Source: Saccharopolyspora sp. SCSIO 74807 (lineage in GTDB: Bacteria > Actinomycetota > Actinomycetes > Mycobacteriales > Pseudonocardiaceae). Taken from it: DNA of 64,000 nt. The notes below the pieces were generated by a model. The model saw only the letters and a program-made list of their open reading frames with translations. It made no database searches and was not told the DNA's origin. The stretch covers positions 2,110,501-2,174,500 of the forward strand of contig NZ_CP146100.1 of the NCBI RefSeq assembly GCF_037023755.1. Reading direction: 5' to 3'. Below are positions 13,155 through 30,486 of the stretch, piece after piece (position 1 is the first letter of the stretch; every line of letters starts with the position of its first letter). The translations under genes were made by a program, and so were the position numbers.

Positions 13155-13235
13155 GCCGGGTTGCCCGAGTGGCCAAAGGGAGCTGACTGTAAATCAGCCG
13201 CGCAAGCTTCAGAGGTTCGAATCCTCTACCCGGCA
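13155..13235 (+). tRNA. tRNA-Tyr (anticodon GTA)
   Basis: Acceptor arms GCCGGGT (13155-13161) and ACCCGGC (13228-13234) pair perfectly. The anticodon stem GCTGA/TCAGC closes a CTGTAAA loop with anticodon GTA, a 12-13 nt variable region follows (class II, as expected for tRNA-Tyr), and the T arm is AGAGG-TTCGAAT-CCTCT. CCA is not encoded. Its 3' half is repeated at 14134, 18053 and 47573, so this is the attachment site of the downstream island; it is the only copy with the 5' half and the only functional gene. Confidence 0.97.
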
Positions 13236-13244
13236 CACCAGCCA
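13177..13244 (+). repeat. att copy 1: 3' part of tRNA-Tyr
   Basis: A 68-bp stretch, from the D-arm end of tRNA-Tyr to nine bases past the gene, that recurs base for base at 14134-14201 and in shorter form at 18053 and 47573. This is the attachment-site sequence targeted by the tyrosine integrase. Confidence 0.9.
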
Positions 13245-14133: not shown

Positions 14134-14201
14134 AGGGAGCTGACTGTAAATCAGCCGCGCAAGCTTCAGAGGTTCGAATCCTCTACCCGGCACACCAGCC
14201 A
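14134..14201 (+). repeat. att copy 2
   Basis: Exact 68-bp copy of 13177-13244. It lacks the tRNA 5' half (no acceptor or D arm), so it is not a tRNA gene. About 90 bp of flank to its right also resemble the flank of att copy 3 at 18091-18190. Confidence 0.9.
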
Positions 14202-14202
14202 A

Positions 14203-14247
14203 GAACGGCCCCTGACCAGCGGTGACGCGGTAAGGGGCCGTTCTCTT
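14203..14247 (+). terminator. Hairpin right of att copy 2
   Basis: GAACGGCCCCT (14203-14213) pairs with AGGGGCCGTTC (14233-14243), followed by a T-rich tract. The same structure in decayed form (one arm mismatch) is at 18093-18134, where it lies beyond the 3' end of the integrase gene. Confidence 0.6.
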
Positions 14248-14390
14248 TGGTCCGGCTGAGTCCGAAACAGTCCGGTGTTCTACGGCCATCTGGTCCCCCG
14301 GTGGTCCCCGGCGGGGGGCGTTCGAGCGGACTGGCGACCGCGCTGTGGTGACGCAGCCGCCAGTCCGTGGAAAGCAGTCCCGAGGCGTGG

Positions 14391-14564
14391 CTACTTGTTC
14401 TTGCAGCCCCATCCGCCCCAACCGCCGTGACCCCAGCCACCGCCGTGACCCCAGCCACCGCCATGGCCCCAGCCACCGCCATGGCCCCAGCCACCGCCAT
14501 GGCCCCAGCCACCGTTCTTGCGGCCGCCGCCGATGTAGACAAACGTGCTCTTGACGTTACTCAT
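14391..14564 (-). CDS. 57-residue peptide with HGGGWG repeats
   Basis: A short gene with a good ribosome site (GAAAGGAC, six bases before the ATG at 14564) and a TAG stop. The product has a 17-residue leader (MSNVKSTFVYIGGGRKN), then five exact GGWGHG hexamers (residues 18-47), then GWGGWGCKNK with the only cysteine. The hexamers create four HGGGW units and one HGGW. HGGGW is the copper-binding core of the mammalian prion octarepeat, so Cu(II) binding is a reasonable inference, not shown. Five 18-bp DNA repeats encode it (14422-14511). A modified-peptide precursor or an adhesive/structural peptide are alternatives. No maturation or export gene adjoins it. Confidence 0.75.
   Translation of the reverse strand: MSNVKSTFVYIGGGRKNGGWGHGGGWGHGGGWGHGGGWGHGGGWGHGGWGGWGCKNK
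14422..14511 (-). repeat. Five 18-bp tandem repeats inside the HGGGWG peptide gene
   Basis: Consensus CCGCCATGGCCCCAGCCA on the plus strand. Two units carry the variant CCGCCGTGACCCCAGCCA, which changes only a synonymous His codon and Gly codon, so the peptide repeat is kept while the DNA drifts: a sign of selection on the protein. Confidence 0.9.
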
Positions 14565-15074
14565 GATGTTGTCCTTTCAGCGTCGTTCAACATCCCGTTC
14601 GGCCGACTCGGCCGAATGCTTCTCCGCATGGAAAGCCTGCCGCACACTTCCCGAGCGGGCTTACCCTCAGGCCAGATCCCGCGATGGTTACGGCGACCCA
14701 CCCTCGACTTCATCGCACTGCCGCCGGATGTGCCCAGAGGACTTAAGGCTCTGATACCAACAAGTCGGGCAGTAGAGACGACGGCCGTCAGGCGCTTTGG
14801 GGCCGACAGCTTTTCCGTTCCAGTCGTGCCAAATTCCGGCGGCTAACGATAAGTGGCGCCAGCGGCCGTACTCACAGCGGTGTTGACTTCGATTTCCACG
14901 ATGATCTCCGGGCGCCGAGTGACGACCGCAGCAGAACCGTTGTTCTCCTGGGCAACCAGTGCGGCAGATGCTGTCGGCCTGCGGCGAGTCGGCGCGCACG
15001 TCACCGCCTCAGAGGGGCAAGATTGATGGGTGTGTGGGGGCGTTTCCGACCGCGGCGCGTTCTCAGGAGGTGTG
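14565..15074. other. 510-bp stretch upstream of the HGGGWG gene and the PAS-GGDEF-EAL gene
   Basis: Should contain the divergent promoters of both neighbours. The only recognisable content is a fragment of a DNA ligase gene at 14853-14912. A 103-codon minus-strand frame at 14688-14999 has several CxxC pairs, but it crosses the ligase fragment in a different frame and has no ribosome site, so I do not call it a gene. Confidence 0.5.
14853..14912 (-). pseudogene. Fragment of an ATP-dependent DNA ligase gene (C-terminus)
   Basis: On the minus strand this encodes PEIIVEIEVNTAV and then, after a one-base deletion, EYGRWRH, matching the end of the ligase at 44562-45518 (PDIVVEIEADTAIEFGRWRH). At DNA level 50 of 60 positions agree with 44601-44661, with the single deletion. 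Sequence outside this block does not match. It indicates that an earlier element at this site also carried a ligase gene. Confidence 0.75.
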
Positions 15075-17177
15075 ATGCAGAAGCAACCTGATGTCGGGGC
15101 CGGTGCTGGAGGCGATCACTCGGGGATCGCGCGGTTGCAGGCGGAGTCCGAGGCTCGGTTGGGGCTGCTTGCTGCGGGTATGCGGGAGTACGCGATCGTC
15201 GTGCTCGATGCGGTTGGTCGGGTGAGCAGCTGGGATGACGGGGCCGAACACGTGCTGGGTTATCGGGCCGAGGAGATTATCGGTGAGCATGTCTCGACGT
15301 TGTCCCCGGCGGAACAAGTCGCTGCTGAGCACGCGGAGTGGCGGCTGGCTCGGGCCGCCGAGGCTGGCAGCCTCGTAGATGAGGGGTGGTGTCGGCGGCG
15401 GGACGGCACCCGCTTCTGGGCGCATATGGTGCTGATCGCGCGTCGATTCTCGGATGGCAGCGTGTGCGGCTTTCTCCAGGTCCTGCGCGATGAGACCGAA
15501 GCCGGTGTCCGCCAGCAGCGGTCCAGTCGACGGTTCAGTGACCTGTTCGACCTCACCCCTGCCGGGATCGCGCTGTTCGACGAGGCCGGGCATGTGCTGG
15601 ACGCCAACGAGGCGCTGTGCAGCCTGCTGGGGTACCGGATGCATGACCTGAGCGCCATGCCCGCCGTGGGGTTGCTGCACCCGAACGACCGGGACACCAG
15701 CCTCATCAGCGAGGGGGCGGCGGCGCGTGTGGCGCTGAACCAGCCGCAGGTGCAGCAGCGGGTGCTGCTGCGCTCGGATGGTCATCCCGTGCCCTGTGAG
15801 GTGCGCACTACGTCGTCGGTGGCCGACGACGGAGGCAGGTTCTGGCTCGTGGTCTTCCAGGACATCACCGAGCGGCAACGTCACGCGGAGACGCTGCGGT
15901 ATCAGGCCTCCCACGACGAGCTGACCGGGCTGCTCAATCGCACCGGCCTCAACGAATTGCTCGACACCGCGTTGCACGGCGGAGCCGATCGGGTCGCCGT
16001 GCTCTTCTGCGACCTGGACAATTTCAAACGCGTCAACGACGCACTTGGGCATGAGGCCGGCGACGAACTACTCACGGCCGTGGCGCGGCGCCTGGCGGAC
16101 GGTTTGCCGCCCGGATGCACTCCGGCCAGGCTCTCCGGCGACGAATACTTGATCGTGTGCTCCGACGTCGAGACCGTCGGTGGCCTGGAGTCCTTCACCA
16201 CGTGGGTGGCCGAGCTGCTGCGCACGTCCGTGCCGCTACGCGGCCAACTGGTCACCGTGTCGGCCTCGATCGGGGCCTCCATGCTCGATCAGGACACCGC
16301 CGGAACAAACCTCCTGCGCTACGCCGACACGGCGATGTTCCAGGCCAAAAGCCGAGGGCCCGGTCGTATCGCGCTGGCCAACCCAGGTTTGATCGGTACG
16401 CGGGAAGGACAGCTGGGTTTGGAAGAGCAGCTGCGCGAGGCCATCAACAGCGACTCTCTGAGCCTGCATTACCAGCCGATTGTGGACCGGGCAGGTTCCA
16501 TTGCCATGGCCGAGGCACTGGTGCGTTGGCAGCACCCGGAGCGCGGCCTGCTGGCCCCCGCAGTCATCCTACCCGTGGCTGAGCAAGGCAACCTCCTCCG
16601 CGCGCTGGATCGACGAGTCCTGCGTGCCGCCCTGAGCGAGGCCACCAGCTGGCACGCCCCGAACGGGCATCCCGTATCTGTCGCGGTCAACCTGTCCGAT
16701 CTGCTGCCGCACGATCCGGAGTTCACCGACGAGATCACCGCGGCCATCACCGAGACCGGAATTCGCAGTGACCGCCTCATCCTGGAAATGGTCGAAACAT
16801 CCCTGGTCGACCTGCCCACACGGCCCCGCGAGGCCATGATCGAACTGGCAGAACGCGGTGTGCGCTTCGCCCTGGACGACTTCGGCACCGGATATTCCTC
16901 GCTGGCCCGCCTCAAAGACCTGCCCGCCCAGATCATCAAACTGGACCGCCAGTTCGTCACCGGCGTGGAAACCGATCCCGCCGACCTCGCCATCGCCCAA
17001 GCCATGATCGGTATGGGCCACGCCATGGGCCGCAGCTGCGTGGCCGAAGGCGTCGAAACCACCGGTCAGTTCCACGCCCTCGACGAGCTCGGCATCGATC
17101 TTTACCAGGGCTGGCTGTTCTCACATCCCCTTTCCACCACAGAATTCCGCACCTTCCTCAGTTCGCAGAAGCCGTAA
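15075..17177 (+). CDS. PAS-PAS-GGDEF-EAL cyclic di-GMP signalling protein
   Basis: 700 residues from the ATG at 15075, preceded by AGGAGG. Order: PAS (about 35-135), second PAS (about 145-265), GGDEF (about 275-440), EAL (about 450-695). The cyclase signature reads SGDEY at 354-358, a variant of GGDEF that may still be active. The phosphodiesterase site is intact: EAL at 480-482, DDFGTGYSS from 601, IKLDRQFV and AEGVETT, so c-di-GMP hydrolysis is likely. No transmembrane segments; PAS domains would sense a soluble cofactor or ligand. In streptomycetes c-di-GMP delays sporulation through BldD. This is island cargo, so it could let the element influence host development. Confidence 0.9.
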   Translation: MQKQPDVGAGAGGDHSGIARLQAESEARLGLLAAGMREYAIVVLDAVGRVSSWDDGAEHVLGYRAEEIIGEHVSTLSPAEQVAAEHAEWRLARAAEAGSLVDEGWCRRRDGTRFWAHMVLIARRFSDGSVCGFLQVLRDETEAGVRQQRSSRRFSDLFDLTPAGIALFDEAGHVLDANEALCSLLGYRMHDLSAMPAVGLLHPNDRDTSLISEGAAARVALNQPQVQQRVLLRSDGHPVPCEVRTTSSVADDGGRFWLVVFQDITERQRHAETLRYQASHDELTGLLNRTGLNELLDTALHGGADRVAVLFCDLDNFKRVNDALGHEAGDELLTAVARRLADGLPPGCTPARLSGDEYLIVCSDVETVGGLESFTTWVAELLRTSVPLRGQLVTVSASIGASMLDQDTAGTNLLRYADTAMFQAKSRGPGRIALANPGLIGTREGQLGLEEQLREAINSDSLSLHYQPIVDRAGSIAMAEALVRWQHPERGLLAPAVILPVAEQGNLLRALDRRVLRAALSEATSWHAPNGHPVSVAVNLSDLLPHDPEFTDEITAAITETGIRSDRLILEMVETSLVDLPTRPREAMIELAERGVRFALDDFGTGYSSLARLKDLPAQIIKLDRQFVTGVETDPADLAIAQAMIGMGHAMGRSCVAEGVETTGQFHALDELGIDLYQGWLFSHPLSTTEFRTFLSSQKP

Positions 17178-17291
17178 CAATTGCCAAAGCCCTCTGACCC
17201 ACCGGCACGATGACTCCGACCGGAGCCCGGAACCGCACTTACGGCGACTTGCCGGGCTGCCGCTGCAACGGCACCCGGCTAGGCTGCACGT

Positions 17292-17864
17292 ATGGCTGAA
17301 CGCCTGGTCACGGACCGGTTGGTGCTGCGGAGTTGGGAGATCGACGACGCGCCCGCGGCGTTGGAGATTTACGGAGACGCCGACGTCGCCCGCTGGCTCA
17401 GTCCGATCATGGACCAGGTGCCCAACCTCGCTGCAATGCGGGTGCTGGTGCGGCAGTGGATCGTCGAAGATCTGCGCGCACCACCGCCCACCGGACGGTG
17501 GTGCATTCAGCGTCGAGAGGACGCGGCGATGCTCGGTGGGGCGACGCTGCTGTATTTGCCTCCAGGGGGCGAAGACCTTGAGCTGGGCTGGCACCTGGAT
17601 CCCTCCGTATGGGGGCAGGGATATGCCAGTGAGAGCACGTATGCGTTGGCACAGTGGGCTTTCCGTCACGACGTCGACGAGGTCTTCGCGGTCGTACGGC
17701 CGGAAAACACGCGCGCGACCAGCTTGGTCCGCCGCAACGGCATGGAATGGGTGGGCGAGACCAGCAAGTACTTCGGGCTGACGATGGAGCTGTACCGGCT
17801 CCGGCCCGCTGACCTTGACCAGGCGCGACAAAGCGCGCTGCCGACGGGTTTCGAGACCGAGTGA
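17292..17864 (+). CDS. GNAT family N-acetyltransferase (RimJ/RimL type)
   Basis: 190 residues. Opening TDRLVLRSWEIDDAPAALE and the acetyl-CoA loop region WGQGYASESTYALAQWAF, then ENTRATSLVRRNGMEWVG, are classic for this family, which acetylates N-termini or small amines. Substrate cannot be told. It lies between the signalling protein and att copy 3, with its own start about 110 bp after the previous stop. Confidence 0.85.
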   Translation: MAERLVTDRLVLRSWEIDDAPAALEIYGDADVARWLSPIMDQVPNLAAMRVLVRQWIVEDLRAPPPTGRWCIQRREDAAMLGGATLLYLPPGGEDLELGWHLDPSVWGQGYASESTYALAQWAFRHDVDEVFAVVRPENTRATSLVRRNGMEWVGETSKYFGLTMELYRLRPADLDQARQSALPTGFETE

Positions 17865-17907
17865 ACCCCGACGGTGCACTGCGACAAATCTGGCTAGAAT
17901 CACAAGC

Positions 17908-18105
17908 ATGTCACCGGGTTTCGATGGAGCCTCTTGGGCTGTAGTCGTAGGGCTAGAAAGTAGGCCCGATGGCATTCTGCGCCAAACCCGTACCCAGATT
18001 CGCCCGGATGTCGATGTTTTCGCTGTTCAAGGCGCCGCACCCTGTGGCGCACGCTTCAGAGGTTCGAATCCTCTATCCGGCACACCAGCCAAGAACGACC
18101 CCTGA
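17908..18105 (+). pseudogene. Possible gene 5' end cut by att copy 3
   Basis: A TAGAAT -10 box (17895-17900) sits seven bases before an ATG that opens a 65-codon frame beginning MSPGFDGASWAVVVGLE and running straight through the att sequence (from about residue 49 it is tRNA-derived). The front half looks protein-like while the back half is not, as expected if recombination at the att site removed the rest. No -35 is clear and no family is recognised. Confidence 0.3.
18053..18091 (+). repeat. att copy 3, left end of the integrative element
   Basis: Shares GCTTCAGAGGTTCGAATC and on through CACCAGCCAA with the other att copies, with a C-to-T change in the acceptor-stem part (CTATCCGG). It lies 110 bp from the end of the integrase gene, as in AICE attP organisation. 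Confidence 0.85.
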
Positions 18106-18200
18106 TAAGCGGTGACGCATTCAGGGGCCGTCCTCTTTGGTCCGGTTGAGTCCGGAACAGTCCGGTGTTCTACGGCCATCTGGCCTCCGGTGGGACGTTC

Positions 18201-19559
18201 CTACTGGCCTTTTAGGGCCAGTTCGACGCGGTCCCGGGCGGTCTGCTCGCCCCCGTCCAGGCATTTGGCGTACACGCGCAACAGGACGCCCACCGAATGT
18301 CCGGCCCACTCGGCGACGCGGGTGGGTTCGACTCCACCGTTGAGCCAGGTGGACACCGCGGCATGGCGCAGGTCATAAGGTCGTTTGGCGAGCGGTGATT
18401 CGTGAAAGGCATCGGTGAAGGTCGCCGCTCGCGCCCGGGCCCAGGCGCGGCCGTAGACGCTGCTGCTAATGCCGCCGTGGTCGCGTTGCCCCCGGAACAG
18501 CCTTCCGTCTCTGGCAGTGCCGTAGTGATCGAGATGAGTCCGCAGGATATCGGTGAGTTCGGGACAGCACGGCACGGTCCGCCCGGTGTCGTCCTCGCGG
18601 TGCTTGAGGCTCCGTTCTTCGGCGCGCGTGCGGCTGTCGGTCCACTCCTTCGCGATCTCGGGCGTGGCCCTGCTGAGGTGGATCTCGCCCCACCCTGTGG
18701 CCGGAAGGGCGAGGTTGGTTTCGCGGACGTTGGATGCCTCTTCTGGGCGCAGTGCGGCGAAGTAGAGCAATGCGAAGAAGGCGTGGAGCCGTGGCTTGTC
18801 CTCGTGCACGGCGCGAAGGAGCGTTCGGGCTTGGACGGGGTTGGCCACTGAGCGACGGTCGACCTGCCGGAGCGTCGTCTTGTTCTTCTTGACCTTGACC
18901 TCATCGATGGGGTTGCTCGTGAGCAGCTTCTTTTCAATGGCGTACTGAATCGCATTGGCCAGCGTGGTGCGTCGCAGTCGAATGGTGTTCGCTGCGGCCC
19001 GGCTGCCGTCTATCTTCGTGTTGATTGCCGCAATCACTTCCCGAAACACGTCGGGGTCCTCCAGGGCGCTCACCTTGCGGCTGTGGTTGGCCAACCAGTG
19101 CAGTGCGCTGCGAACGTCCTCCGGATGCGTGTTGTCACGCATAGCCGGGTTGAATGCGTGCTGAAGCGCCCTGTTAAGGGTCTTCCTGTCGGGCATTCCC
19201 CGGTCGGTGGTCGTCATGGCGACGGTGACGGGTGTCAACGATTGCGCGATGCTGCGCCGATGCTTGGGCGAGGCGTCCGGCCACTTCATGTCGACGTAGG
19301 CGCAGGCGAAGTCGTGCCACGTCATGGTTTCCGTGGTCTGGAGCATGGTGATGGGCAGGCCGGTTTCAAGGTCGAACGCGACACCTTCCTTGGCGGCTAT
19401 GAGCAGGCGGGAGCGAAAGCTTTCGGCCAGAGCCAAGGTTGTGTACGTCTGCTTGAACCGTGGTTTCGTCGCTACCCGCCAGGCGACCCGGTAATTCGTC
19501 GTCGTCTTCCTCTTTCGCTTCTCGATCGCGTGGATCCGAACGTCGTAGGTGGTGTTCAT
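18201..19559 (-). CDS. int: Tyrosine recombinase integrase of the AICE
   Basis: 452 residues from ATG 19559, whose A is shared with the excisionase stop (TGATG). Catalytic residues are in place: R271 (ALRPEEAS), R398-H399 (YDLRHAAVSTWL), H421 (AGHSVGV) and nucleophile Y430 (VYAKCLDG). The usual first His of the H-x-x-R box is Tyr, common in actinobacterial integrases. It has a typical N-terminal SAM-like DNA-binding domain. It should recombine attP with the tRNA-Tyr 3' end; att copy 3 is 110 bp past its stop. Confidence 0.93.
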   Translation of the reverse strand: MNTTYDVRIHAIEKRKRKTTTNYRVAWRVATKPRFKQTYTTLALAESFRSRLLIAAKEGVAFDLETGLPITMLQTTETMTWHDFACAYVDMKWPDASPKHRRSIAQSLTPVTVAMTTTDRGMPDRKTLNRALQHAFNPAMRDNTHPEDVRSALHWLANHSRKVSALEDPDVFREVIAAINTKIDGSRAAANTIRLRRTTLANAIQYAIEKKLLTSNPIDEVKVKKNKTTLRQVDRRSVANPVQARTLLRAVHEDKPRLHAFFALLYFAALRPEEASNVRETNLALPATGWGEIHLSRATPEIAKEWTDSRTRAEERSLKHREDDTGRTVPCCPELTDILRTHLDHYGTARDGRLFRGQRDHGGISSSVYGRAWARARAATFTDAFHESPLAKRPYDLRHAAVSTWLNGGVEPTRVAEWAGHSVGVLLRVYAKCLDGGEQTARDRVELALKGQ

Positions 19560-19747
19560 CAGGCGGCCTCTTCCAGGTCGTCTTGCCAGCGGTCGGCTTC
19601 GATGCGGCGGATGCGGAGCCCACCGTTTGGCAGCTTGATGCAGCGGGGACCGATGCCCTTCGCGCGCCACTCGTAGAAGGTGGAGCGCGCAATGCGGAGT
19701 TCGGCGCAGAACTCGGCGACGGTGAGTGGTGTGCTCTTCGTGCTCAA
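19559..19747 (-). CDS. xis: Excisionase / AlpA-like helix-turn-helix protein
   Basis: 62 residues with a MerR/excisionase-type HTH (LTVAEFCAELRIARSTFYEW). The frame is open upstream, but a GGGAG ribosome site lies just before a TTG at 19747, giving the normal small size. It overlaps the integrase start by one base, so it is co-translated with the integrase; such proteins bend the att DNA to direct excision. Confidence 0.8.
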   Translation of the reverse strand: MSTKSTPLTVAEFCAELRIARSTFYEWRAKGIGPRCIKLPNGGLRIRRIEADRWQDDLEEAA

Positions 19748-19796
19748 TTGGCTCCCGTGTCGGACCGTGGTGATTGCCGTCGGTGCGGTTGGCGCA

Positions 19797-21140
19797 TCAC
19801 GCGGCGTTGTCCGTATCGGAAGGTGTGGCCGTCCCAGCCGTCCCAAGCGTCCCGATGCTGGTCAGGCTGGGACGGCTTGGTTCGGTGGGACGGCTTGAGC
19901 CGTCCCAGGACGGGTCTGCGGGGTGGTCGGGCGGTTCGTGCTCGTCGAGATCGACGAACTGCTCCGGTGAGTCCCGTGCGGGGGTGTTGGGACGACTTGA
20001 GCCGTCCCAGAGGGTCAAGGTGTCCCGCGCTGACCTGGGTTGGGACGCTTGGGACGGCTGGGACGGCTCCCCCTCGGGTGGGCAGTAGCGGGTCCAGGCG
20101 TCGGCGAAGTCGGCGCGTCGGTAGCCCTTGGCTTGGGAGCCGTCGGGGAAGCGGACGTTGCCGGATTTGATGTCGAACTCGGCCAGCAGCTTGGCGAGCC
20201 TGGCTTGGGTAAGTCCGTTAGCGCCGTAGTCGCGCCACGGTGATTCCGGGTCGGCGTTGAGCGCTCGGATGAGGTCGGAGCTGGAGATCTCGGTCTGCTC
20301 GCCGAAGATGGTGCGGCAGTCGATCAGCAACCGGGTGCGCAGGGTTCCTTCGTTGTCGCCCTGGGCTTCGGCGATGAGCGCGAGTGCGGCTTGCCGGGCG
20401 CGGTCGGGCCAGTCGCCTCCGGCGTGGTCGGCGACGACGATCAGGGGTTCCCAGGTGTCGGCCGCGCGGTCTTCGATCGGCATGGACGGTGTCGCTCGTT
20501 CCAGCACGGAGAGATCGGCGCGGAGCCAGGAGCCGATCTGCTCGGCCAGTTCCAGGAGCGCGGAGCGGTCGCGCCGGTGCCGGTAGGGCAGTACTGACTC
20601 GCCGGGTGCGCGGCGGCGCATTCGCACGATGACGGCGCGGTCTTCGATGGTGTCGGGCATGGTGCCGATCCCGGCCAGGGCGGCCATGGCGAAGGTGGGG
20701 ATGGACTCGACTCGGTTGGTGGCGGCGTCGTAGCGCTTGGCTGGCCGGTTGCGTTGGTGTCCGGCGTTGAGCAGTCCGCGCAGGTCTTCGTTCGCCTCGG
20801 CGTTGGTGCCGAAGATGGTGTCGGCTTCGTCGACGAGCATCGTCGGTGGGTCGTCGGTGATGGAGCGGTAGACCGCGGCGGTGCTGGCGTTGACGGTCAG
20901 GAACGGGTCGTGGCTGGTGGCTTCGACAACGTCGAGCAGCCGGGATTTGCCGCAGCGCTTCTCGGGGGCGCGGATGACCAGCCGTGGGGCGTGTGCCCAG
21001 GCGGGTTGTGCGTGGGTGGCGGCGATCCAGAGCACGACGGCATTGGTGGCGTGGGTGCTGGGCAGGATCACGTACCGCGTGAGGGCGTCGTGCAGCTCGT
21101 CGAGCAGTGCGTCTCCGGGCCAGGCGGGTTGAGGTGTCAT
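19797..21140 (-). CDS. DUF3631 P-loop replication protein
   Basis: 447 residues. Residues 58-66 (APEKRCGKS) form a Walker A loop and 101-107 (MLVDEAD) a Walker B; DUF3631 follows. The C-terminal 100 residues are Ser/Pro/Asp-rich with repeated SRP motifs. Start at ATG 21140 has a GGAGAA ribosome site; an ATG at 21173 overlapping the previous stop is the alternative. In AICEs this protein follows a primase-polymerase and is thought to act as helicase or initiator in replication of the excised circle; that role is inferred. Confidence 0.8.
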   Translation of the reverse strand: MTPQPAWPGDALLDELHDALTRYVILPSTHATNAVVLWIAATHAQPAWAHAPRLVIRAPEKRCGKSRLLDVVEATSHDPFLTVNASTAAVYRSITDDPPTMLVDEADTIFGTNAEANEDLRGLLNAGHQRNRPAKRYDAATNRVESIPTFAMAALAGIGTMPDTIEDRAVIVRMRRRAPGESVLPYRHRRDRSALLELAEQIGSWLRADLSVLERATPSMPIEDRAADTWEPLIVVADHAGGDWPDRARQAALALIAEAQGDNEGTLRTRLLIDCRTIFGEQTEISSSDLIRALNADPESPWRDYGANGLTQARLAKLLAEFDIKSGNVRFPDGSQAKGYRRADFADAWTRYCPPEGEPSQPSQASQPRSARDTLTLWDGSSRPNTPARDSPEQFVDLDEHEPPDHPADPSWDGSSRPTEPSRPSLTSIGTLGTAGTATPSDTDNAA

Positions 21141-21169
21141 CAGGGGTTCTCCAGGGGGCGGGGTTGTGG

Positions 21170-22180
21170 TCATGCGGTGCGGCTGAGGCCGTGCAGGGAG
21201 TCGGGGCCGTCCTGGGTGCCGCGGCGCCAGCCGCGGGAGGCGTTTTTGCGGGCCGTGGTCTCTTCGAGCGGTTTGCCGGTGTGGTGGCGGCGGCGAAGGG
21301 CGGCGTTCACGAGCGCGTCGATGGCCTCGTGTTCGTCCCAGGGGGCGGTGTCGTGGGTGGCGAGGTTGGCCAGGCGTCGGGCGGAGGCGTAGAGGAGTTT
21401 CCAGCGCTCGCCGTCGCGCGTTTCGACCTTGCTCAGTTCGTCTTCCCAGATCTGGCGCCAATAGCCGGGAGAGTGGTTGCCCGCCCGAATCCGCGCGAGG
21501 TTGGGAGCCTTCCTCGGCACCACCACTGGTTTCGGCGGGGCGACGCGCGGCCGCAGCCAGTCGGGCAGCGGCGCGATGTCGACGGCGTGGGACACCCGCG
21601 CGTACCGGCCGGAGCTGTCTTCGGGTGGCGCGGTGATCTCGCTGCCGGGTGCGACGACGTAGCCGCCGTGGGCGCGCAGGTCGATTTGGTGCCCGACGCG
21701 GCCGGTGGCGTCGCTGGTGACCTCCAGCCCATTCGGGGCGCGGAAGTACAGGTGGCGCCCGCCGCTGGGGGTTTCGATGGTCAGCGTTTCCGGCCAGGCC
21801 ACACCTTCGGCCGCGGTGAGGGCGTGCAGGGCTTCCAACCCGTCCGCGGCGAGGGTGGGCACGTCGTGCGTGGCCGGTTGGGGTGTCTTGGGCTTGCGGT
21901 CGAGGTCGAGCACGACCAACCCGGACGGTCCGGTGCTGATGCCGACGTTGGCGCGGGGCGTGTGTGTCCACCAACGCCGGAGCATGGCCGGATTCGTGGT
22001 CGCGGCGAGGTAGCCGTGGCAGGGCCGCACTGCGGTCCGGCAGCGGCATTCGCTGGGAGTGCACTGGTCGGCTTTGCACGGCAGGCAGTTGCCGAACGGT
22101 TTCTTGCTGGACGGGCGCAGCGGGAACACGTGCAGCCCGTGCCGGGCGAACCAGGCGGCCCGGTCAAACGATGTCGTCAT
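21170..22180 (-). CDS. Bifunctional DNA primase/polymerase (prim-pol)
   Basis: 336 residues from ATG 22180 behind a perfect AGGAGGAC site; an upstream ATG at 22204 overlaps the preceding stop. The catalytic acidic pair is DLD at 92-94, with SGGRHLYF at about 139-146 and DLRAHGGYVVAPGS from 167. A cysteine cluster (C32, C35, C40, C45, C47, C54) near the N-terminus may bind zinc. Provides primer and DNA synthesis for replication of the excised AICE, with the DUF3631 protein next to it. Confidence 0.88.
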   Translation of the reverse strand: MTTSFDRAAWFARHGLHVFPLRPSSKKPFGNCLPCKADQCTPSECRCRTAVRPCHGYLAATTNPAMLRRWWTHTPRANVGISTGPSGLVVLDLDRKPKTPQPATHDVPTLAADGLEALHALTAAEGVAWPETLTIETPSGGRHLYFRAPNGLEVTSDATGRVGHQIDLRAHGGYVVAPGSEITAPPEDSSGRYARVSHAVDIAPLPDWLRPRVAPPKPVVVPRKAPNLARIRAGNHSPGYWRQIWEDELSKVETRDGERWKLLYASARRLANLATHDTAPWDEHEAIDALVNAALRRRHHTGKPLEETTARKNASRGWRRGTQDGPDSLHGLSRTA

Positions 22181-22200
22181 GCTGTCCTCCTCGGAGTGGC

Positions 22201-22812
22201 TCATGCGGCGTGGTCGGGCGGCGGCAGATCGCGGATGCGCTGTGGCCGCCCGGTCGGCAGCGCCGGGACGCGACGGGCCTGCTTCGCGCGCTTGGTCCGA
22301 TACATGCGGCGGTCAGCCGCGCCGAGCAGGTCGCCGAGCGGAGTTCCGGCTTCGGCGACGGCGTGCCCGACGCTGCCGAGTGCGGTGATCGAGCGGCCGT
22401 CTACATCGAGGGGTTCGATGAGTGCGGCGGCGATCTCTGCGGCCCGTTGCCGGGCGTGCGCCCGGTTCGGGATGCGGCCGAGGTGCACGGCGAACTCGTC
22501 GCCGTGCAGTCGCACGGCTCGTTCGCCGGGCTCGGTGGCCGCGGCGAGTCGGGCGCCGACGGCGGCCAGGACGTGGTTGCCGTAGTTGTGGCCGTGGGTG
22601 TCGTTGATGGCTTTGAACTGGTCCAGGTCGATCAGCAGCACCCCGACCAGCTCCGAGCGGCCCGTGCGTCGGGCGTGGCGCCGCAGGGCGGCGCGGTTGC
22701 CGAGCCCGGTCAGCTCGTCGGTGTGCAGACGACGATGCAGCGTGAGGGTGGTGGCGGTGGTGATGGCCGCCCATCCGGCGGTCGCCAGCGCCACGGTGAT
22801 CTCTGCGAACAT
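22201..22812 (-). CDS. Small membrane-linked GGDEF-domain protein
   Basis: 203 residues: one hydrophobic helix (residues 5-24), then directly a GGDEF domain (DELTGLGNR 32-40, LIDLDQFKAIND from 60, HGDEF 103-107). The first glycine of the signature is histidine, so cyclase activity is uncertain; the domain could instead bind GTP or c-di-GMP. It sits inside the replication operon with ATGA-type coupling to the primase gene, an unusual place for a signalling protein, which suggests a link between c-di-GMP and element replication or transfer. Confidence 0.8.
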   Translation of the reverse strand: MFAEITVALATAGWAAITTATTLTLHRRLHTDELTGLGNRAALRRHARRTGRSELVGVLLIDLDQFKAINDTHGHNYGNHVLAAVGARLAAATEPGERAVRLHGDEFAVHLGRIPNRAHARQRAAEIAAALIEPLDVDGRSITALGSVGHAVAEAGTPLGDLLGAADRRMYRTKRAKQARRVPALPTGRPQRIRDLPPPDHAA

Positions 22813-22899
22813 GCGATGCGCCTCCTACGCAGGGGGTGACGTGGTCCCGCCCGGCTGTCTCTGGCCGGAGTTCGACGGGCGGGACCGCGGCTCTTTCGG

Positions 22900-23157
22900 T
22901 CAGCGGTTGCGACGGTTCTCGCGCTGCACGCGCCGGTAGGCGTTCCACGCCTTCAGACCGATCCGTGGCCGCAGTCCGGTGCCTTCGCAGGGCGGGCAGT
23001 GGCGGATCGCGCGGATGAACGGGGAACGCAGCTTGCCGGTGCCCTCACAGGTCCGGCACGCCTTGAACGGCCAGATCTTGCAGCTCGCGACGTAACCCAG
23101 AGTGAACATAAGCAGGATGGCGAGCAGGAAGACGGTGGTGGAGCCGTCGGGTGTCAC
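22900..23157 (-). CDS. Membrane protein with two CxxCxGxG zinc motifs
   Basis: 85 residues from a GTG at 23157 with AGGAGG upstream. A transmembrane helix (about residues 8-28) precedes CRTCEGTGK and CPPCEGTGL, the paired motif of the DnaJ cysteine-rich domain, and a basic tail (RRVQRENRRNR). Short proteins of this kind are frequent in AICE transfer regions; function unknown, possibly a membrane-bound partner of the Tra complex. Confidence 0.7.
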   Translation of the reverse strand: MTPDGSTTVFLLAILLMFTLGYVASCKIWPFKACRTCEGTGKLRSPFIRAIRHCPPCEGTGLRPRIGLKAWNAYRRVQRENRRNR

Positions 23158-23201
23158 GGATGCCTCCTGGGCGGTTTTGGGCACAGGTCGGCCCGGCGCC
23201 T

Positions 23202-23301
23202 CTAGGCACTAGGGCGCTGGTGATGGCGGGGAGGGGTGTCTAGCGGGGTCTCTAGACCTAGAGGCGGCAGGCTCTAGGTCTAGAGACCCGCCGGGGGCTA
23301 G
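23202..23301. repeat. CTAG-rich region with perfect 17-bp inverted repeat at the 3' end of tra
   Basis: Eight CTAG tetramers occur in 100 bp, although CTAG is normally rare in GC-rich actinobacterial DNA. The core is an exact inverted repeat: GGGTCTCTAGACCTAGA (23246-23262), a 10-nt spacer, and its complement (23273-23289). The last CTAG overlaps the tra stop codon. It may be the tra terminator, the cis-acting locus of transfer (clt) bound by Tra, or an operator; clt lies beside tra in streptomycete plasmids, which favours that reading. Confidence 0.6.
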
Positions 23302-25556
23302 GCGGCGCCGCTACCGCGGTTACGCTCTGCTACTTCAGTGGTGACCTCGGCGCGGGTGATGCCGATGCGGCTGGCACCCTTGCCGTCGTCGGTGGTGCCC
23401 CAGACTTGGGCGGTGCGGATGCCGTGCCGTTTGAGCGCGGCGGTCAGATCGGCGGCTTCCCGGTAGGTGCCGTACACCTCCGGGCGCAGCTCGTAGAGCC
23501 GAGCGATGACACGCTCGTTCCAGACCTTTTTCTCGGTCTCGGGAACCACGGTCAGGATGTCTTCGAGCAGCGTGTCCCGGCGGGAGTCCTCTTCGGACTG
23601 AAGGGCTTCGCCGATGGCATGGCCCGACAATGTTCCGGCCTGCTCCCGCAGGTGCCGGGCGTAGGCGGCGATCTTCTCCGAGGCGGGTCCGTCGAGTCCG
23701 GCGACAGAGCGGACGATCTGTGCATCGCTGCCTTCGCCGACGAGGTAGCCGATGCCCTTGTCTTCCCACGCGAAGGTCGTGGCACGTACGCCCTGCTTGT
23801 ACTTGGAGGTTCCGAGGACCATGTCGTTTTCGGTCTGTCCCTGGACTTTCAGGCACAGCCGGGTGGAGGCGTTCGCGGAAATCCCCGTTGGCAGGGACTT
23901 GGCGTCGGGGCGTTGGGTGGCGAGCATGAGCACGATCCCCAGCGCCGGACCCCGCTTCACGAGGTCGGTGCAGATCTCTTCCAGTTCTTCGCCGTAGTCG
24001 GGGTGCTCGAACCACACCTGGCACTCGTCGACGCCGATGACGATCGGTTGCAATCCGAGCGAGGGCTTGCTGGCCAGGTTGGGAGTGACTTTGTTCTCCG
24101 GGCACATGCCCTGCTTGGCCAGATCCCGGATCAGCTTCGCCCGCCGCCGCAACTCCTTACGCAGCCCGCGCATGTCCGCCACGGCCTTGTCGATCTCCTC
24201 CGGCTCGTCACCGACCCCGTGGACATGGGTGACCTTCTCCAGAGGGTCGAGGTCGCCGGTGCCCTTGAGGTCATAGGTGTGCAGCTGCGACCGCGGGTCC
24301 AATGCGGCGATCAGCAGCAACTCACGCAGCGCGAAGGTCTTGCCCATGCGTGGGATCGCGCCGATCACGATGCTGGTGAACATCAGCCGGAGGTCGACCC
24401 ACCGGCCGCGCTGGTCGGTCCCGAACGGCTGCGATTGGAACAAGTCCACTTGCGCGCCTTTGCGCAGCTTCCATGCCGGTTGTGCGGCCTTGCGCATGTC
24501 CTGATCCCCGACCCACAACACCAACCGGCCCGCGTGCTCCGAGTTGTCGGATTCGGGCCACACGCACCCCACGGGGCGGCGCAGTCCGGAGGCGAGTTTG
24601 GCGCGGCGCTCCATGATGTCGCCGGGGATCACCCCGGGCGGCAGGTCGATGTCCGCACGCCACCCTTTGCCGTCGCGGGCGATCGGGCGGGGGAACCCGA
24701 CCCCGGAACCGCCCTTGCCCAGTGCTTGGTTGATCAGCGAAATCCCGAGCGAAGCCAGCGCCGTTTCGACCGCCCCCGAGGTGAGCTTGGGGGCCTTGGT
24801 CGACTCGACTGCCCGGCTGGCGATGGGCTTGTCCGAGGGGGCTCCCAACCAGCCGAGCCCGCCGATCATGGCGGCCACCGACACCCACTGCACCAACGAC
24901 GGCAACAGCTCGTAGCCCAGCACGATTGCGGTGATGCCGGCGGCGCCGAGCCCGGCCGCCAAGGCCGCGCGGGCACGGACACGGCCGTCCCGCTGCTGCG
25001 AGAGCTTCAAGTACTCGGCGGCATCTTCGCGGCGGGCGGAGGCGTGCCGGACGGGGCGGCCTTCGGCGTCGCCGATCCACCGGGACACCGCCTGGATCAG
25101 CCGCAGCGTGCCCTGTGGAACCCGAGCGAGGAGCCGTCCGAGATACACCGGGCACCGCACCGCGTGATAAGCGCTGGTGTGCCCGGCATAGCCGAGCGCC
25201 CACCGTGCCGCGGCCTGGAACTCCTGCGGGTCCTTGGCCCACGCGGGCAGGATCGGCAACCGCTTCTCCGACCGCGCCAACGAGTTACTGGCCTCGGACT
25301 TCGCCTCCGGCTGGTCCACCTGCGGCGACTCGACAACCTCGCCATCGATCACCGGCGACTCGCCCGACTCCCCCGCGGTCGGCTCCGCGGCGGCCGGTTC
25401 GTCCTCGGGCGCCTCGGTCTCGCGGGCTTTGTCATCCGGTCCGGCCGCGCCCCTGTTGGGAGCGTCGATGCGTTCGGACGGCAACCGCAGCACCCGCGCG
25501 GTCTCGGGTTCCTGCTCGGCCTGGTCCTGGTGTTCCTCGCCGTGGTGCTGGTTCAT
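23298..25556 (-). CDS. FtsK/SpoIIIE-like conjugal DNA translocase (Tra)
   Basis: 752 residues from ATG 25556 (overlaps the previous stop as ATGA, AGG-type site upstream). An acidic N-terminus (1-95) precedes two membrane helices (about 198-240), then the motor: Walker A GAIPRMGKT at 399-407 and Walker B IVIGVDEC at 505-512, and a winged C-terminal region (about 640-740). AICE Tra proteins pump double-stranded plasmid DNA between mycelia as hexamers after recognising short repeats (clt). The CTAG-rich repeat at its 3' end may be that site. Confidence 0.9.
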   Translation of the reverse strand: MNQHHGEEHQDQAEQEPETARVLRLPSERIDAPNRGAAGPDDKARETEAPEDEPAAAEPTAGESGESPVIDGEVVESPQVDQPEAKSEASNSLARSEKRLPILPAWAKDPQEFQAAARWALGYAGHTSAYHAVRCPVYLGRLLARVPQGTLRLIQAVSRWIGDAEGRPVRHASARREDAAEYLKLSQQRDGRVRARAALAAGLGAAGITAIVLGYELLPSLVQWVSVAAMIGGLGWLGAPSDKPIASRAVESTKAPKLTSGAVETALASLGISLINQALGKGGSGVGFPRPIARDGKGWRADIDLPPGVIPGDIMERRAKLASGLRRPVGCVWPESDNSEHAGRLVLWVGDQDMRKAAQPAWKLRKGAQVDLFQSQPFGTDQRGRWVDLRLMFTSIVIGAIPRMGKTFALRELLLIAALDPRSQLHTYDLKGTGDLDPLEKVTHVHGVGDEPEEIDKAVADMRGLRKELRRRAKLIRDLAKQGMCPENKVTPNLASKPSLGLQPIVIGVDECQVWFEHPDYGEELEEICTDLVKRGPALGIVLMLATQRPDAKSLPTGISANASTRLCLKVQGQTENDMVLGTSKYKQGVRATTFAWEDKGIGYLVGEGSDAQIVRSVAGLDGPASEKIAAYARHLREQAGTLSGHAIGEALQSEEDSRRDTLLEDILTVVPETEKKVWNERVIARLYELRPEVYGTYREAADLTAALKRHGIRTAQVWGTTDDGKGASRIGITRAEVTTEVAERNRGSGAA

Positions 25557-26419
25557 GGGGACACCTCCGGAGGGTCGGTGTGCAGCAGGTGAGTCAGGGC
25601 GGCGCCCATGCCGAGCACCGCTACGGGCAGGCAGGCGACCACCGTGGTGATCCACCACGGGGCTGCGGTCATGCCTGCGGCGGTCATCAGGTGATAAGCG
25701 ATCTGGCCGAGCGCGCCAAGTCCGAGCGAGCCGAGCGCGGAGACCTTGGCGAACCGCCGAGCCCGATACGGCACCCGCCCGGACAGCCACACGCGCAGGG
25801 CGTAGGCGGCATAGGTCTCGACCCCGATCGGCAGCGTGATCGCCGTGTTCACCTCGAACCCGGACCAAATGCCGGGAAGCGGGTGCACGATCCCGAACCC
25901 GGTCAGGCCACCGAGGCCGACCCAGCCGGACCAGATCGCCACAAACGCGGGCAACGCCAACAACAACACCGGCCACCGCGGCACCGGCCTACCGACCACC
26001 GGCGGCCCCGGGCTCGCGTGATCGCTGACCTGCTCCGAGCCGACCGACTTCGGATCGCTGTCCGGCGTCGGTTGCTCCGGCTTGTCGGTGTCGGCGGAAC
26101 CGGACTCGGCAGGCTCCGGTTCCGGGTCTTGCTCGTCGTCGTGACCGTCGGCGAGTGGCTGCGTCGGCTCGTCGCTGGACTCCTGCGAGTCCGCCGACGA
26201 GACCAAGTGCAGTCGCCCCGGATTCGACGTGTCCGGCTCTGCCGTGGCTGTGCCGAGCATGTTCAGCACCGCGTTGGCCTTCTTCGCGCCGATCCGCAGT
26301 TCGGACATCAGCCGGTTCCGCGATGGAACCTCGCCGAGGTCGGTGGTGAGCCGTTCGGCCTGCGGCAGCAGGTCTTCGACCGGGACCGGGTAGGCGCTTT
26401 TCGTCGTCGCCGTCGTCAT
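25553..26419 (-). CDS. Spread-type membrane protein with N-terminal HTH
   Basis: 288 residues, ATG 26419 with GGGAGGTG upstream. Residues about 10-60 resemble a small helix-turn-helix (LTTDLGEVPSRNRLMSELRI), residues 65-150 are acidic and disordered, and the last 130 residues carry four membrane helices reminiscent of DUF2637-type SpdB proteins. Adjacent to tra and overlapping it, so probably helps intramycelial spread of the element. The HTH-plus-membrane arrangement could also sense and signal. Confidence 0.65.
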   Translation of the reverse strand: MTTATTKSAYPVPVEDLLPQAERLTTDLGEVPSRNRLMSELRIGAKKANAVLNMLGTATAEPDTSNPGRLHLVSSADSQESSDEPTQPLADGHDDEQDPEPEPAESGSADTDKPEQPTPDSDPKSVGSEQVSDHASPGPPVVGRPVPRWPVLLLALPAFVAIWSGWVGLGGLTGFGIVHPLPGIWSGFEVNTAITLPIGVETYAAYALRVWLSGRVPYRARRFAKVSALGSLGLGALGQIAYHLMTAAGMTAAPWWITTVVACLPVAVLGMGAALTHLLHTDPPEVSP

Positions 26420-26655
26420 CGGGTCACCTCCCAGTTCAATCGCGGCGCCGGAACCTGTTCGGCGAGGTAGTCGACGGACACGATCGCGGCACGCAGCAGC
26501 GCGACCAAGGCGAACGCGCACAGGGCGGTGGTGCGTACGAGCCCGGAGCACAGCGACAGAGCGATCAGCAGCGCGATCGGCAGAACCAACTGCCGCAGCC
26601 CTCGGCAGGTCGTCCGCACGGGCGGGGCGACGAGCCGGTACAGGCGCATTAGCAT
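26416..26655 (-). CDS. Small membrane protein of the transfer region
   Basis: 79 residues from ATG 26655, seven bases after AGGAGGA. Two hydrophobic segments (about 22-40 and 43-62) between basic and polar ends. Its stop overlaps the next start (ATGA). Likely a Spd-like partner; no family recognised. Confidence 0.65.
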   Translation of the reverse strand: MLMRLYRLVAPPVRTTCRGLRQLVLPIALLIALSLCSGLVRTTALCAFALVALLRAAIVSVDYLAEQVPAPRLNWEVTR

Positions 26656-26691
26656 CGGATTCCTCCTGATTGATCAGGCATTGGTTGGGAG

Positions 26692-26733
26692 CCCCGGCCC
26701 AGCTCGGTTCTTGGCGGGACGGCTGGGCCGGGG
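26692..26733 (-). terminator. Strong hairpin after the NUDIX gene
   Basis: Perfect 12-bp arms CCCCGGCCCAGC (26692-26703) and GCTGGGCCGGGG (26722-26733) immediately after the NUDIX stop. In the middle of a leftward operon it may reduce expression of the transfer genes below that of the regulatory genes. Confidence 0.6.
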
Positions 26734-26739
26734 GCGCCA

Positions 26740-27168
26740 CTAGCTGTGGATGCGGCGCAGGGCGTCGCGGACGATGTCGGTGTGGTCGAACGCCAGCGGG
26801 CTGGTCAGGGCTTGGGTGACCGGCACCCACTGGGCATCGCGGGCGTCGTCTCCGGCCCGGGCCTGCGGCATGGTCGACAAACGGGCGGTGTAGGCCACGG
26901 AGATGACGCGGCCTCGGGGGTCGCGGTGTGGCTCGTCGTAGACGCCGACCCGGATCAGGTGCTCGGCGGCAAGGCCGGTTTCTTCGCGCAGTTCGCGCCG
27001 CGCAGCGTCGGCGAACCGCTCCCCGGCGTCGACATAGCCACCGGGCAACGCCCAGCACCCGGCGAACGGATCCCAGCCACGGCGGATCAACAACACATGA
27101 TCAATGCCGCCGCGCTCGGCGAACAGCACGACATCGGTAGTCAGACTGGCGTTCGTGATCTCAGACAA
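26740..27168 (-). CDS. NUDIX hydrolase
   Basis: 142 residues with a complete NUDIX box at residues 43-65 (GGYVDAGERFADAARREL then REETG). Hydrolyses a nucleoside diphosphate linked to another moiety. NUDIX genes are a regular part of AICEs (as in pSAM2, where one lies in the pra-traSA region and has been linked to regulation of transfer), but the substrate is unknown. Preceded by small genes of the same operon. Confidence 0.88.
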   Translation of the reverse strand: MSEITNASLTTDVVLFAERGGIDHVLLIRRGWDPFAGCWALPGGYVDAGERFADAARRELREETGLAAEHLIRVGVYDEPHRDPRGRVISVAYTARLSTMPQARAGDDARDAQWVPVTQALTSPLAFDHTDIVRDALRRIHS

Positions 27169-27221
27169 GACAGTGCCTTTCCAGCTCAGGATGTGTTCGG
27201 GCCGTGATGCGGGACTCGGAG

Positions 27222-27410
27222 TCAGTCAAAGGTGATGTCGCCGGTGATGACCCCGGCCTGGATGCCGACCACCGCCGACCCGCGCTGGACGTTGACCACG
27301 CTGCCGCCGGGCTCGGTAATCGCCGGGTCGTCGTGGTGCCTGCCCGCTTCGATGTCCTCGGCGGAGTAGGTACGACCGCCGATCTGGATGGTGAAGTCGT
27401 TGCTGCTCAT
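27222..27410 (-). CDS. 62-residue protein of unknown function
   Basis: ATG 27410 follows GAAAGGAC, the same ribosome-site style as the HGGGWG peptide gene. The product (MSSNDFTIQIGGRTYSAEDI ...) is beta-rich with repeated Gly-Val turns near the end (SAVVGIQAGVITGDITF), suggesting a small beta-helix or multimer. No family recognised. Confidence 0.55.
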   Translation of the reverse strand: MSSNDFTIQIGGRTYSAEDIEAGRHHDDPAITEPGGSVVNVQRGSAVVGIQAGVITGDITFD

Positions 27411-27456
27411 GACGGTCCTTTCACACTCAGTGGCCACAGTGGACAGATGAGGATGG

Positions 27457-27921
27457 TCAGAGAACGGCGGTGATCAGGGCTGCGACGGCGAGCCAGAGCC
27501 AGTGCCAGGCTTGGTCGAGCACGTAGGCACCGGTGCCCAGGCTCGGGTTGTCGTCGTGGCCGGTCCGCGGCGTGCCGACCCGGTAGAACTCGCCATTGCC
27601 GACCCGCTCAGCCAGCGCAGCGAGCGTGAAGCGCCGATCCGCCCAGTAGTGGGTCACGGCGCTGACCACCTGGCCGGTGACGAACCCGGCAGCAGTGATC
27701 GGCAGACCCAGCACCGCCCACAGCAGCCCGACCGTCCCGGCGGTCACTGCGGTGTAGGACAGGACGTGCTTGGCGCAGCTCCACCGGCCCAGCCCGTCCG
27801 GGCGCCCCTTGTTCGCTGCCTGGTGCGAGGTCTGCACCCAGTGATCAGCCACGTGGTGCGCCACCAGCAGCGCGGGCAACGTCGCGGCAAAGGTCACCGC
27901 GGGTCCAAGGTGGTCGATCAT
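27457..27921 (-). CDS. DUF3307-like membrane protein
   Basis: 154 residues, four hydrophobic segments, with conserved His/Asp motifs HHVADHW (about 22-28), HYWADRR (about 91-97) and LDQAWHW (about 135-141) characteristic of DUF3307 proteins. Function unknown; the His/Asp residues could bind metal. Starts one base into the previous stop (TGATG). Confidence 0.7.
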   Translation of the reverse strand: MIDHLGPAVTFAATLPALLVAHHVADHWVQTSHQAANKGRPDGLGRWSCAKHVLSYTAVTAGTVGLLWAVLGLPITAAGFVTGQVVSAVTHYWADRRFTLAALAERVGNGEFYRVGTPRTGHDDNPSLGTGAYVLDQAWHWLWLAVAALITAVL

Positions 27922-28208
27922 CAGGCAGCCTCCCCGTCCTGCGGAACGGACGGGCCGTCGCTCTCGGCGGTCACCAGCCGCAGCACCGCGTTCCCGGCCC
28001 GCCGCTCGTAGCGGCGCAGACGGGTCCGCTCGCCCGAGCGCAGCACCGACCAGTCGCCAGGCGAAGCCGCAGGCTCCGGCGCTCCCAACTCCTCGGCCAC
28101 CACGGCGTCCCAGTAGTCCCGCACACGCAGGCGGTCCTCTTCTGGCAACTCGGCTTCGATCCCAGCCAGTTCGGCGGCGGTGGGAACTTCGCGGGCGGGC
28201 TCATTCAT
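27921..28208 (-). CDS. 95-residue hypothetical protein, first gene of the leftward AICE operon
   Basis: ATG 28208 has a perfect AGGAGGAC site. An acidic helical protein (ELAGIEAELPEEDRLRVRDY ...) with no recognised domain. About 25 bases lie between the predicted transcription start and this ATG, so it is the first gene read from the promoter at 28240-28268. Confidence 0.65.
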   Translation of the reverse strand: MNEPAREVPTAAELAGIEAELPEEDRLRVRDYWDAVVAEELGAPEPAASPGDWSVLRSGERTRLRRYERRAGNAVLRLVTAESDGPSVPQDGEAA

Positions 28209-28239
28209 GCCGTCCTCCTGGTGTCGATTTACGCTCATA

Positions 28240-28268
28240 TTGATAGTGAACTGGCAGTGGATTGTCAA
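28240..28268 (-). promoter_or_regulatory. Strong sigma-70-like promoter of the AICE core operon
   Basis: On the minus strand: TTGACA -35 (28268-28263), exact 17-bp spacer, TATCAA -10 (28245-28240). It is the best consensus promoter I see in the window and faces the replication/transfer genes. Repeats AGTGGATTG (28256-28264 and 28279-28287) and TGGCAGTG (28252-28259 and 28286-28293) overlap or abut it and probably are operators for the divergent XRE protein. Confidence 0.75.
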
Positions 28269-28345
28269 CGGTTCCGGTAGTGGATTGGCAGTGAAGTGAT
28301 CGGCTCAGCTAGGCTTGCCGCAGGTCACGACGGGCGGGAGGCCCC

Positions 28346-30463: not shown

Positions 30464-30486
30464 CAAGGCGAACACTTAAAGTAAAA

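Follow-up and report, generated by a model that had tools for sequence, protein, structure and literature searches.

Mobile copy of a Trp/Gly-repeat peptide gene in Saccharopolyspora, with relatives encoded beside an ABC exporter and a VioD-like monooxygenase

The closest described counterparts of the peptide gene reported here are the RiPPs, with which its family shares a short precursor, a leader followed by a variable core and, next to the gene, an ABC exporter together with a putative tailoring oxidase; the same scheme would accommodate orphan paralogues that are processed in trans. We know of no RiPP class in which the core is a Trp/Gly repeat and a VioD-like FAD monooxygenase (FMO) is present, and a search of open-licence PubMed Central found none. 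A second point of comparison is the prion octarepeat, whose period is eight residues. Its Cu(II)-binding unit is HGGGW (PMC6721516), and tandem HGGGW pentads also occur in the peptide encoded here; this peptide, however, repeats with a period of six residues (GGWGHG, 18 bp), HGGGW is not conserved in its family, and the likeness is compositional only. VioD itself adds a hydroxyl group at C5 of an indole ring (PMC9705886). As to its genomic setting, the gene is carried by an element that resembles actinomycete tRNA-att integrative and CIME-like elements in its integrase, Prim-Pol protein, weak FtsK/TraB-like gene, tRNA-Tyr repeats, empty site and extra inner att copy, but differs from them in that its cargo includes the peptide gene.

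The window, that is, the whole stretch of DNA analysed, comprises 64,000 nucleotides of a Saccharopolyspora genome. The peptide gene and its immediate surroundings have the following features:
14391..14564, minus strand: Trp/Gly/His repeat peptide gene, 57 amino acids (open reading frame and translation; paralogues and orthologues)
14421..14514, minus strand: 18-bp tandem array, 5.2 copies, encoding the GGWGHG units (TRF)
14572..14578, minus strand: Shine-Dalgarno sequence GAAAGGA, 7 nt upstream of the ATG (sequence; similar sites in relatives)
14327..14367, minus strand: 17-bp hairpin directly 3' of the stop codon, terminator- or stabiliser-like, without a T run (folding)

The gene is real and intact, with an ATG start and the ribosome site that the first-pass annotation of this DNA had described. 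Its translation reads MSNVKSTFVYIGGGRKN (the leader begins MSNVKSTFVYI...), then five GGWGHG units, then the C terminus GGWGGWGCKNK, which holds the single Cys also noted before. The count of five exact hexamers proved right: GGWGHG is found five times when all six frames of the window are read, each time in one and the same frame, as in the peptide gene, and in none of 100 order-1 Markov shuffles, while the 21-base repeat pattern GGNTGGGGNCAYGGNGGNTGG has one match in the window and none in 100 dinucleotide shuffles. The 18-bp units match one another at 97% and vary at two third-codon positions only (GGC CAT three times, GGT CAC twice). The description of this variation as synonymous thus stands, but as the proof of selection it had been taken for it is weak, given an almost uniform array with no more than two variable sites; pS and pN in the leaders of relatives (below) are better evidence. 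The hairpin after the stop codon has a fold z-score of -4.06, and 0 of 200 shuffles of the 90-base stretch were equally stable. A 5' hairpin around the Shine-Dalgarno sequence (GATGTTG/CAACATC) was dropped, its stability being no better than that of shuffles (z 0.75). Searches of the Pfam and NCBIfam libraries matched no family to the peptide at E<=1, in agreement with the earlier remark that no family name fits, and tblastn with the relatives' exporter, monooxygenase, kinase and PLP decarboxylase gave no match in the window at E<=1e-4, so that the earlier statement that no maturation gene is near is correct as far as this copy goes. By tblastn the window peptide gave no match at E<=1 in phage and plasmid collections and hence no sign of such a home for the family, a weak result with the low-complexity filter on.

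The DNA of the sister strain G424 matches window positions 11775-14220 and then resumes at 47570. Because of this jump, and because tRNA-Tyr repeats lie at the bounds, 14202-47572 is an integrated element with a clean empty site in the relative, as its proposed location in an island had implied. The element and its flanks comprise:
14202..47572, no strand assigned: integrated element, about 33.4 kb (empty site in sister strain G424)
13177..13244, plus strand: 3' part of tRNA-Tyr and adjoining bases, repeated at the element ends (ARAGORN, blastn)
14134..14201, plus strand: attL-like direct repeat, 68 bp identical to 13177-13244 (ARAGORN, blastn, sister strain)
47573..47651, plus strand: attR-like direct repeat, 96% over 79 bp (blastn, sister strain)
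18047..18091, plus strand: inner att-like remnant beside the integrase (blastn)
15030..17177, plus strand: PAS-GGDEF-EAL protein, same segment as the peptide gene (Pfam)
17292..17864, plus strand: GNAT acetyltransferase, same segment as the peptide gene (Pfam)
18201..19670, minus strand: tyrosine integrase of the element (PF00589 just under the Pfam cut-off; weak XerC match)
21170..22204, minus strand: Prim-Pol replication protein of the element (Pfam)
23298..25976, minus strand: FtsK/EccC/TraB-like ATPase of the element, weak (NCBIfam below cut-offs; without Pfam match)
38702..40723, plus strand: Cd-family heavy-metal P-type ATPase, same element (TIGR01512/TIGR01525 above cut-off)

Direct repeats of a tRNA 3' end (the tRNA-Tyr gene itself occupies 13155-13236 according to ARAGORN), an integrase and an empty site in a relative are thus found together, as in tRNA-integrated mobile elements. 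The peptide gene is located 190 bp in from the left end, within a 3.8-kb segment that the inner att-like copy divides from the integrase; since 14157-14293 and 18047-18183 match each other at 92% over 137 bp, this segment is bounded by att sequences, and its arrangement is that of what we take to be an accreted cis-mobilisable (CIME-like) segment. Also on the element are a second recombinase and an ArsR-family regulator, which accompanies the P-type ATPase about 24 kb from the peptide gene. The window copy is a mobile, orphan precursor gene brought in by this tRNA-Tyr integrative element. Just outside, between tRNA-Tyr and attL, the stretch 13245-14133 has att repeats on either side and occurs in both strains; it encodes a BrnT-like toxin (13286-13654), which scores under the Pfam cut-off, and a protein that by reading is a likely antitoxin. 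ARAGORN also reports a tRNA-Phe at 14121-14193; this call shares bases with the tRNA-Tyr att repeat and most likely represents that fragment rather than a tRNA-Phe gene.

The host genome (6.69 Mb) contains at least four members of the family: the window copy and copies at 5.65 Mb (MSNVKSVFVYINNRRRHGNGWGWGN...), 6.02 Mb (MSNVKNVFVSIGNRHHG...) and 5.08 Mb (MRVKSIFRFGSGGWGWGHGG...). A profile search gave matches in nine of the 390 family genomes, and of these nine G023 did not show the leader and was dropped; the congeners G001-G004 have one or two copies each, and further copies occur in other Pseudonocardiales. Weak matches (L005-L008, L020) that gave no GW peptide with a leader in scans were likewise discarded, and a peptide-alignment scan of named genomes matched 271 stretches, none confirmed at E<=1e-3, probably because the query is of low complexity. 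Common to the 27 tabulated Trp-core members are a Trp/Gly core and a short leader. The leader motif M-x(0-2)-[IV]-K-x-x-F is found in 22 of them, the window copy included, and missing in five, while the cores vary; a conserved leader before a variable core is the arrangement of RiPP precursors, and the earlier suggestion of a modified-peptide precursor is supported as a possibility. Over leader codons 2-11, the 15 pairs of six members gave a pooled pS of 0.43 and pN of 0.15 (three of the 15 pairs were reversed and three identical), and the window and host operonic leaders differ mostly synonymously (pS 0.85, pN 0.09 over 10 codons). Sites like GAAAGGA also precede the relatives' peptide genes, and long stems are predicted after the peptide stop codon in all 15 loci folded, the window included, of which the window's was compared with shuffles.

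What persists across the family, judging from the tabulated members, is Trp and Gly, not the His site. His is absent from five of the 27 members and HGGGW occurs in three, with four copies in the window peptide and one in each of the other two (the L137 peptide, outside the 27, has two). The first-pass annotation had put Cu or Ni binding through a prion-like HGGGW forward as one of its two inferences; the Cu(II) sites are not conserved in the relatives, and we reject such binding as the main function of the family while retaining it as a rival reading, chemically possible for the window copy. The family is apparently undescribed: no account of it was found in open-licence PubMed Central full text, where the repeat letters were also used as a query.

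At 5.65 Mb in the host, and in the congener orthologues, the peptide gene is followed after about 80 bp by a gene for an MsbA-type ABC exporter and then by one for an FMO, the putative tailoring enzyme that is missing beside the window copy. In operonic copies generally, a spacer of about 80-250 bp that contains a hairpin separates the peptide gene from the ABC gene, and the FMO gene adjoins the exporter gene in co-directional or convergent orientation, its start overlapping the ABC stop codon in L040, L044 and L053. In the host, one match to the FMO was reported at E<=1e-40, beside the exporter at 5.65 Mb (four of 17 first-look candidates were scored). Among solved structures the FMO is nearest to VioD both by sequence (3e-44; 4e-56 with a profile) and by fold (Foldseek ranks 1-4, TMq 0.71-0.73, for a model with mean pLDDT 79), and a VioD-like fold is thus predicted for it. 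It nevertheless differs from VioD and from salicylyl-CoA 5-hydroxylase: identity to VioD in the fold comparison is 26-27%, the NCBIfam scores stay below both cut-offs (205.7 bits against 620 for the VioD model NF053547, with the G003 copy; 377 bits, the higher of the two, against 1078 for salicylyl-CoA 5-hydroxylase), and its genetic neighbours are a peptide and an exporter. A role of the host FMO in aromatic catabolism is possible, because 3-4 kb beyond it there are genes for a muconolactone isomerase and a catechol dioxygenase; its other neighbours in G001, G003 and G004 differ from the host's. Among the neighbours read, no leader-binding protein, protease or cyclase was recognised.

Several further genes were recorded around these loci. 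Close to the operonic locus the host, further downstream, and some other Saccharopolyspora encode a CobW-family GTPase (L009, L030, L034, L041, L061), and none was seen among the ORFs read in the operonic regions of G001, G002, G003 and G004. An HlyD-family secretion protein (Pfam) is encoded upstream of the peptide in L053 (2392-3132), and ORFs upstream of the peptide in L137 (3-716) and L141 (3478-4197), which have no ABC gene within 1.5 kb, are HlyD-family-like by reading. In L010, L011 and L028 there are mycofactocin genes at a distance of roughly 5 kb from the operonic copy, identified by NCBIfam in L010 (mftB and mftC) and by sequence likeness in the other two. Within about 5 kb of the 5.08-Mb copy of the host (L129, peptide at 5944-6078) are another Cd-family P-type ATPase, clipped by the end of that locus sequence, a DDE transposase and a gene of the penicillinase-repressor family that scores weakly as CopY, and about 3.2 kb from the corresponding peptide gene of G424 lies a tRNA-dependent cyclodipeptide synthase gene (L131, 3002-3688, above cut-off).

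The association between core composition and partner enzyme was followed from the exporter side. The N-terminal part of the exporter was searched in named genomes, which gave 129 stretches and 39 confirmed loci, a set that reflects the reach of two peptide patterns and tblastn and is no full census; core classes were read by eye from the small ORF upstream of each exporter, and partner enzymes assigned by directed tblastn. By core, the 39 loci comprise 18 Trp (L054 among them visible only in part), seven Tyr/Asn-rich, 11 basic (Arg/Lys/His/Ser/Thr), two Asp/Arg-rich and one clipped before the core but with a monooxygenase (L040). The FMO is present at 16 of the 18 Trp-core loci, and as the other two (L056, L070) end inside the exporter, at 16 of 16 that can be judged; it is absent from all six Tyr-core loci with enough flank (L048 being too short) and from all 13 basic or Asp/Arg loci, hence from 19 of 19 testable non-Trp loci. 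A Fisher test of 16/0 against 0/19 gives p 2.5e-10, a value to be read with the relatedness of the loci in mind (11 of the 16 Trp loci are from Saccharopolyspora). A protein-kinase homologue follows the exporter at 11 of 11 basic loci (four confirmed as Pfam protein kinases) and at none of the 28 others, that is, at 11 of the 13 charged-core loci. In the exporter tree the Tyr-core clade (94/84) is nested within a group of 24 rows (100/100) in which each of the other 17 rows has the FMO, so that the FMO and Trp were probably lost together, once. L056 and L070 fall outside this group, L070 with the kinase-bearing basic-core loci.

A second sample was drawn from the side of the enzyme, of which homologues at E<=1e-40 occur in 299 of the 390 family genomes. 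Taking the best match of each of 30 genomes, 18 loci have an adjoining exporter, three (L137, L141, L147) have a Trp-core peptide next to the FMO and no such ABC gene within 1.5 kb, and nine have neither within that distance. Eleven further regions included six already seen, one (L170) with an interrupted exporter and no peptide found, and four new FMO and ABC loci with an intact exporter and readable upstream DNA. All four encode a Trp-core peptide upstream of the exporter, detected by the scan in L164 and L171 and by reading the frames in L166 and L167, which the scan had missed.

The reading that we favour, with moderate confidence, is that the window gene codes for a precursor, served in trans, of a Trp/Gly-repeat peptide that is exported and probably oxidised at its indole rings. 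We infer that the gene is expressed; the leader, of about 10-16 residues, would mark the precursor and direct it to monooxygenase and exporter, the low-complexity core (GGWGHG)n would be the product part, and the GC-rich hairpin after the peptide gene probably sets high expression of the precursor against low expression of the exporter. The FMO would most likely hydroxylate the indole rings of the core Trp residues, after which the ABC protein would export the finished peptide from the cell. The window copy would supply a variant core, most likely processed by the exporter/monooxygenase pair at 5.65 Mb on the same chromosome, and the product could be an extracellular peptide that is aromatic and cross-linkable, or one used in competition. 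Some findings run counter to this. The window core is built of GGWGHG and the operonic core of GWGWGN/H, and the window leader has GGG where the host operonic copy has NNR, which makes recognition in trans uncertain; a peptide-oxidising FMO also has to be reconciled with the wide occurrence of its homologues and the nine of 30 loci that lack both ABC gene and peptide.

These last two observations also speak for the most serious competitor, which we consider possible though not probable, in which the ABC protein exports an unmodified peptide, for example a membrane-active or adhesive one, and the FMO is a small-molecule hydroxylase of the aryl-CoA type. The best NCBIfam score of the FMO, that for salicylyl-CoA 5-hydroxylase, and the muconolactone isomerase and catechol dioxygenase genes downstream of the host FMO point the same way. 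Against it, the FMO tracks Trp cores across the loci, adjoins the peptide without the ABC gene at three loci, overlaps the ABC stop codon with its start at three others and is missing where the core is Tyr-rich, though the exporter is closely related, and in G001, G003 and G004 its other neighbours are not those of the host. Metal binding, with the four HGGGW of the window copy holding Cu(II) as in the prion octarepeat (PMC6721516) and the gene carried as Cu or Ni defence cargo, seems improbable to us. The P-type ATPase and ArsR-family regulator of the element, the metal-related genes near the 5.08-Mb copy and the CobW-family GTPase near some operonic loci are what speaks for it; the window ATPase, however, is 24 kb distant and of the Cd family, CobW was not seen among the ORFs read in the four congener regions, His and HGGGW are not conserved, and it is an exporter and a flavoenzyme that recur as partners.

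A regulatory leader ORF acting as a Trp- or Gly-dependent attenuator of a downstream gene might be suspected from the Trp-rich operonic copies, about 80-250 bp ahead of the ABC gene with a hairpin between, and from an orphan at 2.47 Mb in G001 that has a co-directional gene 366 bp downstream. We reject it as very improbable: the next downstream ORF is not co-directional at the window copy and at five of the six other orphans checked (L129, L131, L133, L025, L027), and loci with other cores (Tyr, Arg/Lys) share the same layout. Finally, the window copy itself could be a functionless hitch-hiker that was swept into the end of the element and whose repeat is expanding neutrally, a reading compatible with any of those for the family. 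This copy is strain-specific, has no partner genes nearby and has a nearly uniform repeat, but its start codon, Shine-Dalgarno sequence, leader, hairpin and reading frame are all intact and its leader differs from the host operonic one mostly at synonymous sites, which makes us doubt that it is mere passenger DNA.

If the favoured reading of an exported, indole-oxidised peptide is true, these genes would add a new class to the modified or exported peptides of actinobacteria, one easily overlooked because Trp/Gly products are short and of low complexity, and the VioD-fold flavoenzyme family would gain a plausible peptide substrate. The tempting prion/copper analogy is corrected as well, with Trp and Gly persisting in the family rather than the His site. 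The system would be RiPP-like and exported, and residue-matched enzymes on one exporter lineage would be more unusual, suggesting that this lineage swapped cargo composition and tailoring enzyme together. A wider scheme along these lines, which we offer tentatively and think rather unlikely as a whole, is that one ABC exporter lineage serves compositionally opposite cores, each with an enzyme suited to its residues: an indole-type flavin hydroxylase for Trp/Gly cores, a protein kinase for Ser/Thr/Arg/Lys cores, and neither of the two for Tyr/Asn/Gly cores. The exports would be disordered and rich in stickers, forming adhesives, coats or condensates tuned by residue-matched modification, and spare precursors would travel on mobile elements.

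Among the loci with other cores, a basic, Ser/Thr/Arg/Lys-rich peptide followed by a related ABC exporter and a kinase homologue was recorded in L057, L058, L060, L062, L063, L065, L066, L067, L068, L069 and L071, in hosts that include Streptomyces, Kitasatospora, Pseudonocardia, Geodermatophilaceae, Anaeromyxobacter and one actinobacterial MAG. Tyr/Asn/Gly-rich peptides precede the exporter in L045, L046 and L048-L052 (at about 4620-4900), from Pseudonocardiales and actinobacterial MAGs, and MoeA-type genes adjoin the peptide locus in L045. In L059 and L064, Asp/Arg/Cys-rich peptides stand before an exporter with a Pro-rich C-terminal tail of, by reading, about 300 residues.
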